Assembly: GCF_014202975.1 (NCBI RefSeq)
Contig: NZ_JACHHZ010000002.1
Coordinates: forward strand, 310,001 to 374,000
Source: Povalibacter uvarum
GTDB taxonomy: Bacteria > Pseudomonadota > Gammaproteobacteria > Steroidobacterales > Steroidobacteraceae
DNA length: 64,000 nucleotides
Direction of reading: 5' to 3'
Shown here: piece after piece, positions 54,612 through 60,568 of the stretch
Layout of the letters: each line of letters starts with the position of its first letter
Numbering within the stretch: the stretch's first letter is position 1
Position numbers and translations under genes: made by a program
The notes under the pieces: model-generated
Databases searched by the model: none
What the model saw: only the letters and a program-made list of their open reading frames with translations
Told to the model about the DNA's origin: nothing

Positions 54612-57353
54612 ATGACCCAAGGCCGCAAGCTCGTCCTCGTCGACGGCTCTTCGTATCTCTATCGCGCATTCCATGCGCTGCCGCCGCTGACGAATTCGAA
54701 GGGCGAACCGACGGGCGCGGTCCTTGGCGTGCTCAACATGCTGCAGAAGCTCCTCAAGGAGGAGTCGCCGCAACTGATCGCGGTCGTCGTCGACGCGCCG
54801 GGCAAGACGTTTCGCGACGAGCTGTTCGAGGAATACAAGGCGACACGGCAACCGATGCCGGATGAGCTGCGCGCGCAGGTCCAGCCGCTGCTCGACTCCG
54901 TCAAAGCGATGGGCTTGCCGCTGCTGCGCATCGAAGGCGTCGAGGCAGACGACGTGATCGGCACGCTCGCAAGGCAGGCGGCCGCGCAAGGGATCGATGT
55001 GCTGATCTCGACGGGCGACAAGGACATGGCGCAGCTCGTCAATGAGCGCATCGGTCTCGTGAACACGATGACTGCCTCGCGGCTCGATCGTGCTGGCGTG
55101 AAGACCAAGTTCGACGTGTTCCCCGAACAGATCGTCGACTACCTCGCGCTGGTCGGCGACACCTCTGACAACATTCCCGGCGTGCCGAAGGTCGGCCCGA
55201 AGACGGCGGCCAAATGGCTGAACGAGTACCAGACGCTCGACGCATTGATCAGCAGTGCGGACGCAATCGCCGGAAAGGTGGGCGAGAGCCTGCGGGCCAG
55301 CCTCGGGAATCTCGAACTGTCCCGAAAGCTCGCGACGCTCGACTGCGATCTGAAGCTCGACATGACGCCGGAGTCGTTGGTCCGGCAGGAACCGGATATC
55401 GAACGACTGCGTGCGTTGTTCACACGACTCGAGCTGCGCTCCCTGCTTCGCAGCATCGTGGGCGGTGGCGATGCCGATGTCACGGAGGAAGCCTCCGCAG
55501 CGGTGGAAAGCGCCCTCGCGGAAACACCTAGCGCACCGCGCCCTCCTCGCAGCTACGAAACCGTCACGACGCCAGAAGCACTGCAGCGCTGGACTGAATC
55601 GCTGAAGGCGGCGGACCTGATCTCGATCGATGTCGTCACGACCGCCGCCGACTACATGCAGGCGCAGATCCTGGGCGTCGCGATCGCGATCGAACCCGGC
55701 AAGGCGGCCTACGTGCCGACGGGGCACGACTATCCCGGCGCACCCGACCAGCTCACGCTGGATGCGGTCCTTCAGTCGCTCAAGCCGGTTTTCGAGGCAG
55801 GCATTCCCGGGAAACTCGGTTACCAGCTCAAGTTCTGCGGCCATGTCCTGAAACGGCACGGCATCGAACTCAGGGGCATGCGCTTCGACGCCATGCTCGA
55901 GTCGTACGTCTGGAACAGCACGGCGACGCGTCACGAGATCGACGCCACGGCGAGGAAGTATCTCGGCATCGAGTTGATCGCATTCGAGAGTCTCGTCGGC
56001 AAGGGCGCCAAGCAGATCGGTTTCAATCAGGTCGCGCTCGACAAGGCCACGGAGTACTGCGCCGAAACCGTCGACATCGCACTGCAGCTGCACCAGGTGC
56101 TGTGGCCGAAGATCGAAACGACAGGTGAGCTCAAGTCGCTCTACGAGACCATCGAACAGCCGCTGGTGAACGTGTTGCTGCGGATGGAGCACACGGGCGT
56201 GCTGATCGACGGTGGCCAGTTGCGTCAGCAGAGCAGCGAGCTCGCGACGAAAATGCGCGAGATCGAAGCTCAGGCCCATGCGGTCGCCGGTGCACCGTTC
56301 TCTCTCGAATCGCCGAAGCAGCTTCAGGACGTGCTGTTCAACAAGCTCGGGTTGCCCGTGCTTGGGAAGACGCCCACCGGGCAGCCCTCCACGGCGGAGT
56401 CTGTCCTCGAAGAGCTCGCGGAGAGCTACGAGCTGCCGCGACTCGTCATGGACTATCGCGGCTTCGCGAAGCTCAAGTCGACGTACACCGACAAGCTGCC
56501 GTTGCAGATCAACCGCAACACCGGCCGCGTGCACACGTCATACGCGCAGGCGGTGGCGGCAACAGGGCGACTCTCGTCGCAGGATCCGAATCTGCAGAAC
56601 ATCCCGATCCGTTCGCAGGAAGGACGCCGCATCCGCCAGACGTTCATCGCACCGACGGGTCACTGCATCGTCGCCGCCGACTATTCGCAGATCGAGCTGC
56701 GCATCATGGCGCATCTGTCGGGCGACGCCGGCTTGCTGGCCGCGTTCGCCGAGGATCGCGACATCCACCAGGCGACTGCGGCGGAGGTGTTCGGCACGCC
56801 CTTCGCGGAGGTCACTGCGAATCAGCGCCGCTCGGCAAAAGCAGTGAACTTCGGATTGATCTACGGCATGTCGGCGTTCGGGCTGGCGCGCCAGCTCGGC
56901 ATCGCGCGCGGCGAAGCGCAGAAGTACGTCGATCTGTATTTCGAGCGCTATCCCGGCGTGCGGCGCTACATGGATGAAACACGGCAACTTGCCCGTACAC
57001 GCGGCTACGTCGAGACAGTGTTCGGACGCCGCCTGTATCTCAACGACATCACCTCGCGCAACGCAGCGCTGCGCCAGGCAGCCGAACGCGCCGCCATCAA
57101 TGCGCCCATGCAGGGAACGGCGGCCGACATCATCAAGCGGGCGATGATCGACGTCGATCGCTGGCTCGTCGAATCGAAGATCGAAGCCAGGCTGATCATG
57201 CAGGTGCACGACGAGCTCGTGTTCGAGGTGCGCGACGATCTCAAGGACGATCTCATGCTGCGAGTCCGCACCATGATGGCAGCAGCCGCGAATCTCAGCG
57301 TGCCGCTCAAAGTGGACGCAGGAGCGGGCCGGAACTGGGACGAAGCCCACTGA
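54612..57353 (+). CDS. polA: DNA polymerase I with an apparently inactivated 3'-5' exonuclease site
   Basis: The 913-residue Pol I carries a 5' nuclease (residues 1-300; LVLVDGSSYLYRAFHALPPL, DDVIGTLARQAA, SDNIPGVPKVGPKTAAKWL), a 3'-5' exo-like domain (about 330-500) and a polymerase (about 520-913; DYSQIELRIMAHLSGD, RRSAKAVNFGLIYGMSAFGL, MQVHDELVFEV). The exo motifs look lost: where E. coli has DTET, here IDVVTT (Asp-x-Glu to Asp-x-Val); NLKYDRG is QLKFCGH (Asp to Cys); and AAEDADV is CAETVDI (Asp to Thr). Polymerase and 5' nuclease appear intact. Confidence 0.95.
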   Translation: MTQGRKLVLVDGSSYLYRAFHALPPLTNSKGEPTGAVLGVLNMLQKLLKEESPQLIAVVVDAPGKTFRDELFEEYKATRQPMPDELRAQVQPLLDSVKAMGLPLLRIEGVEADDVIGTLARQAAAQGIDVLISTGDKDMAQLVNERIGLVNTMTASRLDRAGVKTKFDVFPEQIVDYLALVGDTSDNIPGVPKVGPKTAAKWLNEYQTLDALISSADAIAGKVGESLRASLGNLELSRKLATLDCDLKLDMTPESLVRQEPDIERLRALFTRLELRSLLRSIVGGGDADVTEEASAAVESALAETPSAPRPPRSYETVTTPEALQRWTESLKAADLISIDVVTTAADYMQAQILGVAIAIEPGKAAYVPTGHDYPGAPDQLTLDAVLQSLKPVFEAGIPGKLGYQLKFCGHVLKRHGIELRGMRFDAMLESYVWNSTATRHEIDATARKYLGIELIAFESLVGKGAKQIGFNQVALDKATEYCAETVDIALQLHQVLWPKIETTGELKSLYETIEQPLVNVLLRMEHTGVLIDGGQLRQQSSELATKMREIEAQAHAVAGAPFSLESPKQLQDVLFNKLGLPVLGKTPTGQPSTAESVLEELAESYELPRLVMDYRGFAKLKSTYTDKLPLQINRNTGRVHTSYAQAVAATGRLSSQDPNLQNIPIRSQEGRRIRQTFIAPTGHCIVAADYSQIELRIMAHLSGDAGLLAAFAEDRDIHQATAAEVFGTPFAEVTANQRRSAKAVNFGLIYGMSAFGLARQLGIARGEAQKYVDLYFERYPGVRRYMDETRQLARTRGYVETVFGRRLYLNDITSRNAALRQAAERAAINAPMQGTAADIIKRAMIDVDRWLVESKIEARLIMQVHDELVFEVRDDLKDDLMLRVRTMMAAAANLSVPLKVDAGAGRNWDEAH

Positions 57354-57461: not shown

Positions 57462-57992
57462 ATGCGTAAGTTCTCAACCCTGTCCGCGCTCCTGCTCGGT
57501 TCGACCCTCATGGCGAGTGCCGTGTCGCAAGCAGCGGACAACGGCATCTACATCGGCGCGGGCATCGGGCAATCGAATGTCGATATCGACGCTGGTGTCA
57601 CTCAGATCGACGGCGACGACACCGGCTTCAAAGTGATCGCCGGGTTCCGCCCGCTCGACTGGTTCGGCGTCGAGGTCAACTACATCGATTTCGGCGAAGT
57701 GAGCGATTCCGGCGTGAATGTGGAATCGGATGCGTTGGCCGCTTACGCGGTCGGATTCCTGCCGCTGGGCCCGGTCGACCTGTTCGCCAAAGCCGGCGTC
57801 GCCAGTGCGGACACGAGCGTGGGAACGAGCCTGGGGCGGGTGTCGGACGACAGCACCGACTTCGCCTACGGAGCGGGCCTGCAGTTCCGGCTGCTCAGCC
57901 TCAGCGCCCGCATCGAATACGAGATCTTCGATCTCGAGGATGTGGACGACCTGAACATGATTTCGGTGGGGCTCACCTACACCTTCCTTTGA
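57462..57992 (+). CDS. Outer-membrane beta-barrel protein (OmpA-like/OmpW-like fold)
   Basis: The 176-residue product has a signal peptide (LSALLLGSTLMASAVSQAA) and a short barrel of the outer-membrane beta-barrel type: GIYIGAGIGQSNVDI, FKVIAGFRPLDWFGVEVNYI, DFAYGAGLQFRLLSLSARIE, ending YTFL with a terminal aromatic/hydrophobic residue. No OmpA peptidoglycan-binding domain is present. The start at 57462 gives the proper signal peptide. It stands alone, with polA upstream. Confidence 0.8.
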   Translation: MRKFSTLSALLLGSTLMASAVSQAADNGIYIGAGIGQSNVDIDAGVTQIDGDDTGFKVIAGFRPLDWFGVEVNYIDFGEVSDSGVNVESDALAAYAVGFLPLGPVDLFAKAGVASADTSVGTSLGRVSDDSTDFAYGAGLQFRLLSLSARIEYEIFDLEDVDDLNMISVGLTYTFL

Positions 57993-58137
57993 GCATCAGG
58001 GGTGCTTTTTCGTTGCTTTGCTGCAACAAATTGACGCCGACGCGGTGAAAACCGAGGCGTCTCCTGTGGTCACCACCTGACGCCTAAGAGGTTGAAAAAC
58101 TCACGATTTCTTAATCAAACGCGACGCAAAATCTCGC

Positions 58138-58166
58138 GGAACTTTCCCGGGGGCCGCACGTCTCAA
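58138..58166 (+). promoter_or_regulatory. Sigma-E/AlgU-type promoter for the small RNA
   Basis: GGAACTT (58138-58144), then a 16-nt spacer (58145-58160), then TCTCAA (58161-58166). This is close to the E. coli sigma-E consensus (GGAACTT, about 16 nt, gTCtaA) and the Pseudomonas AlgU one (GAACTT-N16-TCtgA). Transcription is predicted to start near 58172, at the first hairpin. Confidence 0.75.
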
Positions 58167-58171
58167 CTAAC

Positions 58172-58289
58172 GAGCGTCGGCCAGGACGCTCCCGTTCGCT
58201 GACCTCCCTGAGTGAACGGTAGCCCGGTCCATCCCCATGCCGGGTAACAACTGCCCCGATGGCCTTCGCGGCCATCGGGGTTCTTTTTT
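58172..58289 (+). ncRNA. Candidate sigma-E-driven small RNA at the polA-engB locus (Spot 42/ErsA/sX13 position)
   Basis: About 118 nt with four consecutive hairpins: GAGCGTC/GACGCTC (58172-58191, loop GGCCAG); CCGTTCGCT/AGTGAACGG (58192-58219, loop GACCUCCCUG); CCCGG/CCGGG (58223-58244, loop UCCAUCCCCAUG); and the terminator stem CCCCGATGGCC/GGCCATCGGGG (58254-58280). The C-rich loops could pair with Shine-Dalgarno sequences. In E. coli Spot 42 and in Pseudomonas ErsA (sigma-22 dependent) are encoded between polA and engB; this locus is the same. No ORF exists here. Confidence 0.8.
58254..58289 (+). terminator. Rho-independent terminator of the small RNA
   Basis: An 11-bp perfect stem (58254-58264 with 58270-58280, loop TTCGC) is followed by TTCTTTTTT (58281-58289). 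It is strong and + strand oriented, ending the candidate sRNA 14 bp before the end of convergent engB. Confidence 0.9.
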
Positions 58290-58302
58290 CCAGCCCCGTT
58301 TC

Positions 58303-58887
58303 TTAGCCGGACAGCTGTTTCAGGACCCATCCCCGGGCCTGGTCCAGGCCGGTCTTGGCGACCGCCGAGAACAACTGAACGGTCGCAATCGTCCCCGCCT
58401 CGGCTTCGACGGCCTTGAGGGTTCTGGCCGCCTCGCTGCGATTGAGCTTGTCGGCCTTGGTCAGCAGCAGATGCGCGGGCAGCGAGCGCTCACGGGCCAG
58501 GGCGAGCATCTGCCGATCGAAGTCCGTCACCCCACGGCGCGAATCCATCACGACGACCACGCCCGCCAGAGAACCGCGATTCTCCACGTAGCGGCTCAGC
58601 AGCTTGCGCCAGTGCTCCTGCATCTCGGGCGGTACTTTCGCGTAGCCGTAGCCGGGCAGGTCCGCCAGGCGATGACCGTTCGCCAGACCGAAGAAATTGA
58701 TCAGCTGCGTGCGGCCCGGCGTCTTGCTCGTCCGGGCGAGGTCCTTGCGTCCGGTGATGGCGTTGAGGGCACTCGACTTCCCCGCGTTCGAGCGGCCGAC
58801 GAAGGCGACTTCCTTGCCCTGGTCGGGCGGAAACTGGTGCGGTTGCCACGCGCTGATGAGGAACTGGGCTTCAGGGAATTGCGGCAT
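58303..58887 (-). CDS. engB: Ribosome biogenesis GTPase EngB (YsxC/YihA)
   Basis: The 194-residue small GTPase is needed for large-subunit assembly. Motifs: G1 FVGRSNAGKSSALNAITG, G2 SKTPGRTQLINFF, G3 DLPGYGYAK, G4 LLTKADKLN. The ATG at 58887 gives normal length. It is convergent with the candidate sRNA, with polA further upstream on the + strand, a pairing conserved with E. coli yihA-polA and Pseudomonas. Confidence 0.95.
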   Translation of the reverse strand: MPQFPEAQFLISAWQPHQFPPDQGKEVAFVGRSNAGKSSALNAITGRKDLARTSKTPGRTQLINFFGLANGHRLADLPGYGYAKVPPEMQEHWRKLLSRYVENRGSLAGVVVVMDSRRGVTDFDRQMLALARERSLPAHLLLTKADKLNRSEAARTLKAVEAEAGTIATVQLFSAVAKTGLDQARGWVLKQLSG

Positions 58888-59036: not shown

Positions 59037-59648
59037 ATGAAGTTTCAGCCGATCGTCCTGCTGTCTGCATTGTGCAGCCTGTCCGCGAGCATTCCGGCCT
59101 TCGCCGAAGGCACTGCTGAAGCCGGCCAGGCCAAGTCGAGCACGTGTGTTGCCTGCCACGGCGTCGATGGCAACAGCGTGAATCCGGAATGGCCGACGAT
59201 CGCCGGCCAGCACGGCGAGTACATCGTGAAGCAGCTGAAGGCATTCAAGTCCGGCGCGCGCCAGAACGTGCTGATGAGCCCGATGGCAGCAGGCCTGTCG
59301 GATGCCGACATGGCCGATCTCGCAGCCTACTTCTCGTCGCAGACTGCCAATGGTCTCGAAGCGGATGCCGGCAAAGTGACTCTCGGCCAGCGCCTGTATC
59401 GCGCGGGCGATACCGAACGCGGCATTGCCGCCTGCACGTCCTGCCACGGCCCGAGCGGCCGCGGCAATCCGACGGCGCTCTATCCGTCGCTCCACGGCCA
59501 GCATGCGACGTATGTCGAAGCGCAGCTCAAGGCGTATCGCAGCGGAACCCGGCAGACCGATCAGAATCAGATGATGCGCGACGTGACGAAGCTGCTGACC
59601 GATGAGCAGATCGCAGCAGTCGCTGCCTACGTGCAGGGCCTGCGCTGA
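59037..59648 (+). CDS. Cytochrome c4 (di-haem)
   Basis: The 203-residue periplasmic cytochrome has a signal peptide (ALCSLSASIPAFA) and two CxxCH haem sites: CVACH at residues 37-41 and CTSCH at 133-137. The duplicated domain layout (KAFKSGARQ, LAAYFSSQTANG; then KAYRSGTRQ, VAAYVQGLR) matches cytochrome c4, which carries electrons to terminal oxidases. Axial Met candidates are in LMSPMAAG and the second half. It is divergent from engB and followed by dsbA, a common pairing in gammaproteobacteria. Confidence 0.92.
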   Translation: MKFQPIVLLSALCSLSASIPAFAEGTAEAGQAKSSTCVACHGVDGNSVNPEWPTIAGQHGEYIVKQLKAFKSGARQNVLMSPMAAGLSDADMADLAAYFSSQTANGLEADAGKVTLGQRLYRAGDTERGIAACTSCHGPSGRGNPTALYPSLHGQHATYVEAQLKAYRSGTRQTDQNQMMRDVTKLLTDEQIAAVAAYVQGLR

Positions 59649-59692: not shown

Positions 59693-60568
59693 GTGAACAG
59701 AATTGGCGCCGGTTTCGCTGCTTTGATGCTCATCGCGCTCGCCGCTTGCGGTAACAAGCAGGAGGCGCCGCCGGCGGAACAGACCGCACCAGCACAGACG
59801 GCGGCACCAGCTGCAAGCGAACCCGCCGCCGCGACACCGGGCGATGAAGCCGCCGCGCCTGCCGCGGAATCGCCGGCCACGCCGTCCGAAACGATCAGCG
59901 AAACCGACGACGGCGGTCAGGAAACGACGGCGGAAGCCGCGCCGTCGACCACTCAGCCTTCGTTGCGCCTCGGCGGCCCGTCGAATGCATCGCCGACCTC
60001 CGCTCAGTTCAAGGAAGGCGCGAACTACAGCAAGGTCGTCCCGAACCAGCCGACGAGCGTCGGTCCGGGCCGCGTCGAAGTCGTCGAAGTATTCTGGTAC
60101 GGCTGCGGCCATTGCTTCGCGCTCGATCCGTCGATCGAATCCTGGCGCAGCAAGAGCAAGCCTTCGTACGTCGAGTTCGTCCGCATCCCCGCGATGTGGA
60201 ATGAAACGACCCGCATGCATGCCCGCATGTTCTACACCGCCGAGCTGCTCGGCAAACTCGAAGAACTGCACGCCCCGATGTTTCGCGAGATCAACGTGAA
60301 GGGCAACCAGCTCAACACGGTCGACAAGATCACGGCGTTCTTCCGCCAGAACGGCGTGAACGCGGACGACTTCCAGAAGGCGTTCTCTTCGTTCGCCGTC
60401 GAGAGCAAGCTGCAGCGCGCCGATTTCCTCAACCGCCGCTATCGCATCGAGTCGGTGCCGACGGTCATCGTGAACGGCAAGTACCGCACGGATATCGGCA
60501 TGGCCGGCGGCGAAGAACAGCTGTTCGGCCTGATCGGCGAACTCTCCGCCTCGGAACACGGCGGCTGA
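59693..60568 (+). CDS. dsbA: DsbA-like thiol:disulfide oxidoreductase, lipoprotein form
   Basis: The 291-residue protein has a lipoprotein signal ending LIALAAC (Cys19), an 80-residue Ala/Pro/Glu/Thr-rich linker and a DsbA-type thioredoxin domain. Active site FWYGCGHCFALDP: CGHC replaces the usual CPHC of DsbA. The domain continues with KAFSSFAVE and VPTVIVNGKYRTDIG (cis-Pro loop). GTG at 59693 has GAGAGGA upstream. It probably makes disulfides in the periplasm. It follows cytochrome c4 by 44 bp. Confidence 0.9.
   Translation: MNRIGAGFAALMLIALAACGNKQEAPPAEQTAPAQTAAPAASEPAAATPGDEAAAPAAESPATPSETISETDDGGQETTAEAAPSTTQPSLRLGGPSNASPTSAQFKEGANYSKVVPNQPTSVGPGRVEVVEVFWYGCGHCFALDPSIESWRSKSKPSYVEFVRIPAMWNETTRMHARMFYTAELLGKLEELHAPMFREINVKGNQLNTVDKITAFFRQNGVNADDFQKAFSSFAVESKLQRADFLNRRYRIESVPTVIVNGKYRTDIGMAGGEEQLFGLIGELSASEHGG

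Follow-up and report, generated by a model that had tools for sequence, protein, structure and literature searches.

The region at 58138-58289 of the window, the 64,000-nucleotide stretch of Povalibacter uvarum DNA that was analysed here, is probably an independent small RNA (sRNA) gene read by the RpoE (sigma-E) form of RNA polymerase. It would be a member of an old and widespread gamma- and betaproteobacterial family of the polA-engB locus that includes sX13 and anti-hemB RNA, and it would repress mRNAs in trans by anti-Shine-Dalgarno loops. We hold this reading as a whole with good confidence. The earlier note had claimed an independent sRNA gene at the polA-engB locus, and the comparative data upheld both the gene and its place. 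The features of the locus are as follows, where R2 denotes the second of two covariance models described below.

54612..57353, + strand: polA (Pfam PF00476 and exonuclease domains), the upstream flank of the locus
57462..57992, + strand: omp, gene of a small beta-barrel outer membrane protein (Pfam PF13505, PF01389)
58138..58144, + strand: -35 element GGAACTT of a sigma-E-type promoter (sequence; conserved in relatives)
58161..58166, + strand: -10 element TCTCAA, with a 16-nt spacer to the -35 element
58172..58289, + strand: predicted sRNA of about 118 nt (fold z -5.58, covariation, R2 match of 106.4 bits)
58172..58191, + strand: SL1, a 7-bp hairpin whose loop varies outside the genus (fold, covariation)
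58192..58219, + strand: SL2, a 9-bp hairpin with the loop GACCUCCCUG at 58201-58210 (fold, covariation)
58222..58245, + strand: SL3, a 7-bp hairpin with the loop CCAUCCCCAU at 58229-58238 (fold, covariation)
58253..58289, + strand: intrinsic terminator with a 12-bp stem and U tract (fold and terminator scan)
58303..58887, - strand: engB (yihA/ysxC), a GTPase gene (Pfam PF01926), convergent with the sRNA
59037..59648, + strand: cytochrome c gene, after engB
59693..60568, + strand: DsbA-like gene, after the cytochrome c gene

Structure, conservation and promoter of the sRNA gene

The predicted transcript starts with GAGCG at 58172 and ends with T6 at 58289. Its 5' end was inferred from the promoter spacing and from the GAGCG start that is kept in relatives, and the predicted length agrees with the about 118 nt proposed previously. 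The fold of 58172-58295 reached -63.8 kcal/mol against -43.2 ± 3.7 kcal/mol for shuffled sequences (z -5.58), and none of 200 shuffles equalled it. Four perfect hairpins and a strong terminator had been described at first sight; the strong terminator stood, but it is identical with the supposed fourth hairpin, which leaves three, and two of these (SL2 and SL3) are not perfect, as they include G-U pairs. A terminator scan, a second method beside the fold, placed the same terminator at 58253-58281. SL2 carries the most conserved loop of the family.

The order polA-omp-sRNA-engB, which had also been proposed, was confirmed in 12 of 13 genus loci as well as in L014, L019 and L103, and a comparable omp between polA and the sRNA was not detected at the other loci examined. 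EngB of the window is 61-83% identical to EngB of the 12 other genus loci and 68-71% identical to that of named Steroidobacter/Peristeroidobacter. In a DNA search of 60 genomes, our own and relatives, the sRNA was matched in 21; among same-genus genomes it was present in 12 of 13 others, and the single miss was a 75%-complete genome. Steroidobacter agaridevorans and S. gossypii are among the bacteria with the gene (L024 and L027). The genus alignment, denoted as A2, was made by MAFFT without structure and holds 13 rows, 12 of them distinct. In A2, 99.0% of stem cells pair, compared with 31.7-43.6% in slid controls, and two-sided changes occur in 7 of 33 stem pairs, a count reached by none of 500 shuffles. 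SL2 alone has such changes in 5 of its 9 pairs. On one of the five measures, further pair types, the alignment (16) was not above the shuffles (17.0). The earlier note had tied its claim to conservation of the hairpins in relatives, and promoter, covarying stems and C-rich loops were indeed found in 12 of the 13 other genus genomes. A partial second copy (L022:1495-1595, genome G005) has no PolA or EngB nearby and no visible promoter or terminator, and is probably a relic.

The promoter GGAACTT-N16-TCTCAA at 58138-58166 had been reported with the right letters and coordinates, and its sigma-E type is upheld by conservation. The strict pattern GGAACTT-N14-16-GTCNNA matched the 6.3-Mb genome only once, at this site, but the backward-pattern control matched 10 times; such a count from a single genome therefore proves nothing alone, and the reality of the sRNA rests on conservation. 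All 13 genus copies (our own and 12 others) have the strict promoter at an identical distance from the RNA. For the counts outside the genus and for those of neighbours, L022, L223, twelve loci regarded as chance matches (L166-L177) and repeats of one place were left out. The strict promoter was found in 47 of 80 copies outside the genus against 5 of 4635 background windows (0.1%), at least GAAC(T/C) in 68 of the 80 against 6.7% of background windows, and the strict form in 10 of 19 copies of a mid-rank sample. Considering that 33 of 80 and 9 of 19 copies fail the strict pattern, RpoE control is not universal. A sigma-E-like promoter is absent from the betaproteobacterial copies L157-L159 and from L108 and L121, and some lineages have thus switched to a different control.

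In the case of the window RNA itself, control by RpoE is likely, since the genome's own rpoE (TIGR02939, 311.9 bits, over the cut-off) is preceded by CGAACTTTCCGGGGACACGCCGGTCTAT, which is very similar to GGAACTTTCCCGGGGGCCGCACGTCTCAA ahead of the sRNA. The same genome has 29 matches to TIGR02939 at E<=0.001, one of them over the cut-off, and thus encodes many ECF-type sigma factors; another of these with a similar promoter preference might drive the sRNA instead of RpoE, and several relatives lack the GAACTT promoter. Against this, the close resemblance of GGAACTTTCCCGGGGGCCGCACGTCTCAA to the promoter of the genome's own rpoE argues for RpoE, and we regard another ECF factor as unlikely. The genome also encodes hfq.

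Relatives of the sRNA and their genomic neighbours

Two covariance models were used to follow the RNA beyond the genus. R1, built on the 13 genus copies with the window sequence among them, matched 73 of 369 genomes of the class (Gammaproteobacteria) at E<=0.01. R2 was built on 54 R1 matches in 48 loci; near-duplicates were left out, as were L001 and L010, because these two gave second, antisense matches of 30.4 and 22.0 bits. R2, whose training sequences come partly from the same genomes, matched 198 of 369 gammaproteobacterial genomes, 169 of 314 good-quality genomes and 146 of 271 genera. By count from the listing, 18 of the 198 genome matches lie above E 1e-5, and the best of 26 R2 matches outside the class, which set the noise, has E 5.7e-5; as such, about 180 genomes are beyond noise. 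Without synteny, only matches at E<=1e-5 were trusted. The window RNA reaches 106.4 bits against R2, with the CUCCCU loop in SL2 and the polA/engB neighbourhood also in place, but since the window was in the training of R1 and five genus sequences were in that of R2, the distant relatives are the real test of R2.

In the alignment of the 54 training rows (A4), which is fitted to the model, all 33 pairs have two-sided changes, and 95.7% of cells pair, compared with 73.0% when shuffled and at most 49.8% in slid controls. CUCCCU in SL2 occurs in 53 of the 54 rows, where selection by the model favours such rows, and CCCCA in SL3 occurs in 45. A phylum draw of 299 genomes gave the 26 'same phylum' matches outside the class, at E 5.7e-5 to 0.0086. 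At 8 loci of those 26 genomes no PolA, EngB or CytC match was found, and the elements looked C-rich and terminator-like by eye; a CUCCC hairpin is present at one outside-class match (L170). We treated the outside-class matches as chance. Three matches within the class (L169, L171 and L177, E 2e-4 to 1e-3) are without PolA and EngB and look like chance as well.

The neighbours were examined in three sets. The first comprised 80 loci chosen by EngB similarity only, some on contigs that end early; 27 of them held 29 R2 matches at E<=0.01, all downstream of engB and on the opposite strand, where 11 of the 27 loci, and as duplicates 2 others, had contributed to R2 training. The second comprised 19 mid-rank matches of the class, picked from the listed range of E 8.4e-13 to 4.0e-9; 17 adjoin PolA and/or EngB, and the remaining 2 have only a cytochrome gene as neighbour. 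The third comprised 91 loci with R2 matches, a set biased to good ones from which L166-L177 were excluded. EngB was found in 67 of these and is convergent in 65, and PolA was found in 56, in 53 of them upstream on the same strand. PolA stands without EngB in 16 and EngB without PolA in 27, contig ends being a possible cause; 2 loci have the cytochrome gene only, and 6 have none of the three. That the RNA is kept where the neighbour on either side is missing fits a trans-acting gene.

Convergence in 65 of the 67 EngB-bearing loci, together with the like arrangement of Spot 42 and ErsA, would also suit an sRNA that acts mainly in cis on engB, through convergent transcription or overlap of the 3' ends, and such an action would explain why different sRNAs keep the polA-engB place. 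However, the predicted RNA ends 13 nt short of the engB stop codon and does not overlap its coding sequence, and PolA occurs without EngB in the 16 loci above and neither in 8 more, some of which may be contig ends; cis action on engB as the main role is therefore improbable in our judgement. Slightly less probable still is that the element has no regulatory role and merely terminates transcription, or shapes the 3' end, of omp, polA or engB. Its strong terminator and its position just before the engB stop codon would suit that role, but a conserved promoter precedes it, omp is followed by separate terminator-like sites (57986-58007, terminator scan), conservation of the CUCCCU loop equals or exceeds that of the covarying stems, and by eye the stem lacks a long U run after it when read on the minus strand. 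Moreover, the RNA occurs where PolA or EngB is missing from the flanks, and at L131 and L155 its orientation to the usual polA/engB neighbours is reversed. A dual-function or peptide-coding RNA, like the SpfP annotation of Spot 42 (spfP in E. coli spf), is the least credible reading: a GTG frame V(N/D)G(S/N)PVHPHAG is found in some genus members, but only 6 of 13 copies (L001, L003, L005-L008) have these 11 codons, the frame being disrupted or lacking in the others, an ATG frame in SL3 reaches the end of the RNA before any stop codon in 12 of 13, and no peptide frame is conserved among the 13 genus copies.

Several genomes hold more than one copy. L115 has four sRNA copies beside engB (1081-1194, 1298-1407, 1501-1624 and 1715-1833), and L113, L126, L130, L133, L047 and L055 have two matches each beside engB, all at E<=0.01; many copies at these loci have their own promoter-like sequence. 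In a Xanthomonadaceae-type genome, a second R2 match (L223:1501-1606) lies apart from polA and engB; it includes a terminator and a loop of the GGCUCCCCUCCCUCC type. The copies at L157, L158 and L159 are of anti-hemB type and exceed the Rfam cut-off; engB was not matched in the 1.5 kb around them, and genome G636 of this group has five R2 matches.

Proposed action and candidate targets

Homology and the loop sequences lead us to propose that the RNA is induced by RpoE and represses its targets by masking Shine-Dalgarno regions. Under envelope stress, an anti-sigma factor would release RpoE and the level of the sRNA would rise. The sRNA would expose two C-rich loops, CCUCCCUG and AUCCCC, which are like the anti-Shine-Dalgarno end of 16S rRNA, and by base pairing to the G-rich ribosome-binding sites of certain mRNAs they would prevent translation in trans. 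Transcription, stress induction, base pairing and target repression are thus predictions from sequence and analogy, and the mRNAs hit are probably those of envelope proteins and transporters. As to the analogues, sX13 is described in PMC3771888 as repressing through C-rich loops on G-rich motifs near start codons, and ErsA is reported to depend strictly on sigma-22 (PMC7565897) and to repress the porin OprD (PMC8383071).

The adjacent omp gained no support as a target, since its pairing with the sRNA is ordinary: duplex z ranged from -1.07 to +1.98 over 14 loci (12 genus loci, L014 and L103) with 30 mononucleotide shuffles each, where internal structure was ignored and the start codon was extrapolated in six loci in which the match starts inside the protein. 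Sites exactly complementary to the SL2 loop and placed ahead of an ATG numbered 7 in the genome, compared with 2 for the backward control. Over 14 genus genomes there was no clear excess, with 47 matches against 63 for a permuted motif that keeps the same Shine-Dalgarno core, while backward controls gave 7 and 20. Of the 47 loci, 30 were read; 10 of these have an ORF of at least 60 aa, and no gene recurred among them, while for the permuted motif one gene recurred in three loci. A search for long exact seeds may be unsuited to the question, because shorter contacts may suffice. The hfq gene, considered by analogy with sX13, was rejected; its leader, which shows AAGGAGATAATG, has no long G-rich match by eye.

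Comparison with catalogued sRNAs

The closest Rfam relative of the window RNA is anti-hemB (RF02837; 29.3 bits, E 4.1e-5, below the 49.5-bit gathering cut-off), which was absent from the earlier note. The note had proposed a check with the Spot 42, ErsA and sX13 models, and of these only sX13 responded (RF02232; 27.7 bits, E 0.0015, below its 50-bit cut-off); ErsA (RF01719) and Spot 42 (RF00021) gave no match to the window up to E 10. All four families are without a clan in Rfam.

Anti-hemB, or Burkholderia RNA 7, shares with the window RNA the CUCCCUGAG hairpin and a site just downstream of and convergent with engB. It differs in that the Rfam model has 81 positions and no SL1, and in that the window has polA/omp on the far side. 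In Burkholderia the far side is presumably occupied by hemB, going by the family name. In a first scan of 20 loci, 4 had anti-hemB over the cut-off right behind engB, three betaproteobacterial (L050, L085, L089) and one in Steroidobacteraceae (L103, 56.8 bits); L014 (52.0 bits) and L112 also passed. A second 20 loci (17 from the phylum draw with L106, L108 and L112) held sX13 in 4 and anti-hemB in 10. At 20 chosen gammaproteobacterial loci, the RNA matched RF02837 in all 20 at E<=0.0012, with only L014 above the cut-off, and thus relatives often lie below Rfam cut-offs (19 of 20 loci). The ncS04 RNA of B. cenocepacia (PMC5688073) is anti-hemB/Burkholderia RNA 7, and S17 of Bordetella (PMC11722255) may be related.

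The likeness to sX13, which had been claimed for the C-rich loops, extends further: PMC3771888 places sX13 just downstream of polA, and both RNAs have three stems with C-rich loops, although omp intervenes in the genus of the window. The loop sequences differ, and the sX13 copies seen here have GAACC, not GAACTT. According to the same paper, sX13 acts without Hfq. R2, with no sX13 and only some anti-hemB in its training, recovers sX13 in Xanthomonadaceae and anti-hemB in Betaproteobacteria, and in 4 of 4 genomes with a recognised sX13, this RNA was its best genome match among the matches listed; some Xanthomonadaceae genomes may still lack a match. We conclude that the window RNA, anti-hemB and sX13 are homologous.

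In the case of ErsA (Pseudomon-1), the locus was as the earlier note had it, with ErsA (127-134 bits) between polA and engB in 4 of 5 Pseudomonas-type genomes, which were recognised by RsmY. ErsA shares with the window RNA the polA-sRNA-engB layout, C-rich stretches and a GAACT(T/A) promoter-like sequence, so that a sigma-E/sigma-22-type promoter stands at the polA-engB locus in both, but it has no CUCCCU hairpin. R2 matched these loci weakly, with 23-29 bits in 4 of 5 and no match there in the fifth (L185), through SL1, SL3 and the terminator and not the SL2 loop. Therefore ErsA was rejected as a clear homolog, and it may be homologous to the family. Some relatives score against RF01719 below its cut-off of 50 (L127, 32.9 bits), and the four-copy locus L115 scored below the cut-offs of three families, sX13 (48.3 bits), anti-hemB (35.9-41.8 bits) and ErsA (37.1 bits). 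One of its copies (L115:1084-1186) matched alphaproteobacterial ar14 (RF02344) with 38.0 bits against a cut-off of 58.8, a hint of wider kinship or of convergence among C-rich sRNAs.

In E. coli K-12, Spot 42 occupies the same site, also as the note had stated, and lies in the same orientation (polA-spf-engB(yihA)); it is controlled by CRP. R2 gave no match at the E. coli Spot 42 locus up to E 10, as with the reverse comparison above; homology was rejected, and on this evidence Spot 42 shares only the place.

A paper that links sX13, anti-hemB, ErsA and this RNA, or one that treats sX13 and ErsA together, was not found in the open-licence literature searched. The sX13 authors stated in PMC3771888 that the gene is confined to Xanthomonadaceae, and did not settle what the polA locus holds in other bacteria. 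Here, about one in two of the sampled gammaproteobacterial genomes had a related RNA, which among the matches checked usually lay at polA-engB, and the point of interest is a common engB-linked family that joins sRNAs catalogued as separate families. Should control by RpoE prove true, the RNA would be a candidate for an ancestral branch of the envelope-stress response that works through a small RNA, and a target established in one lineage could then be sought in others. Whether the polA-engB interval already held a single RpoE-driven, anti-Shine-Dalgarno-like sRNA before the beta- and gammaproteobacteria split, with sX13, anti-hemB, ErsA and the window-type copies as its descendants, we judge to be an even call; only Spot 42 may then be a later replacement. 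If this common descent is true, separate lines of research have studied one ancestral envelope-stress riboregulator under different names.
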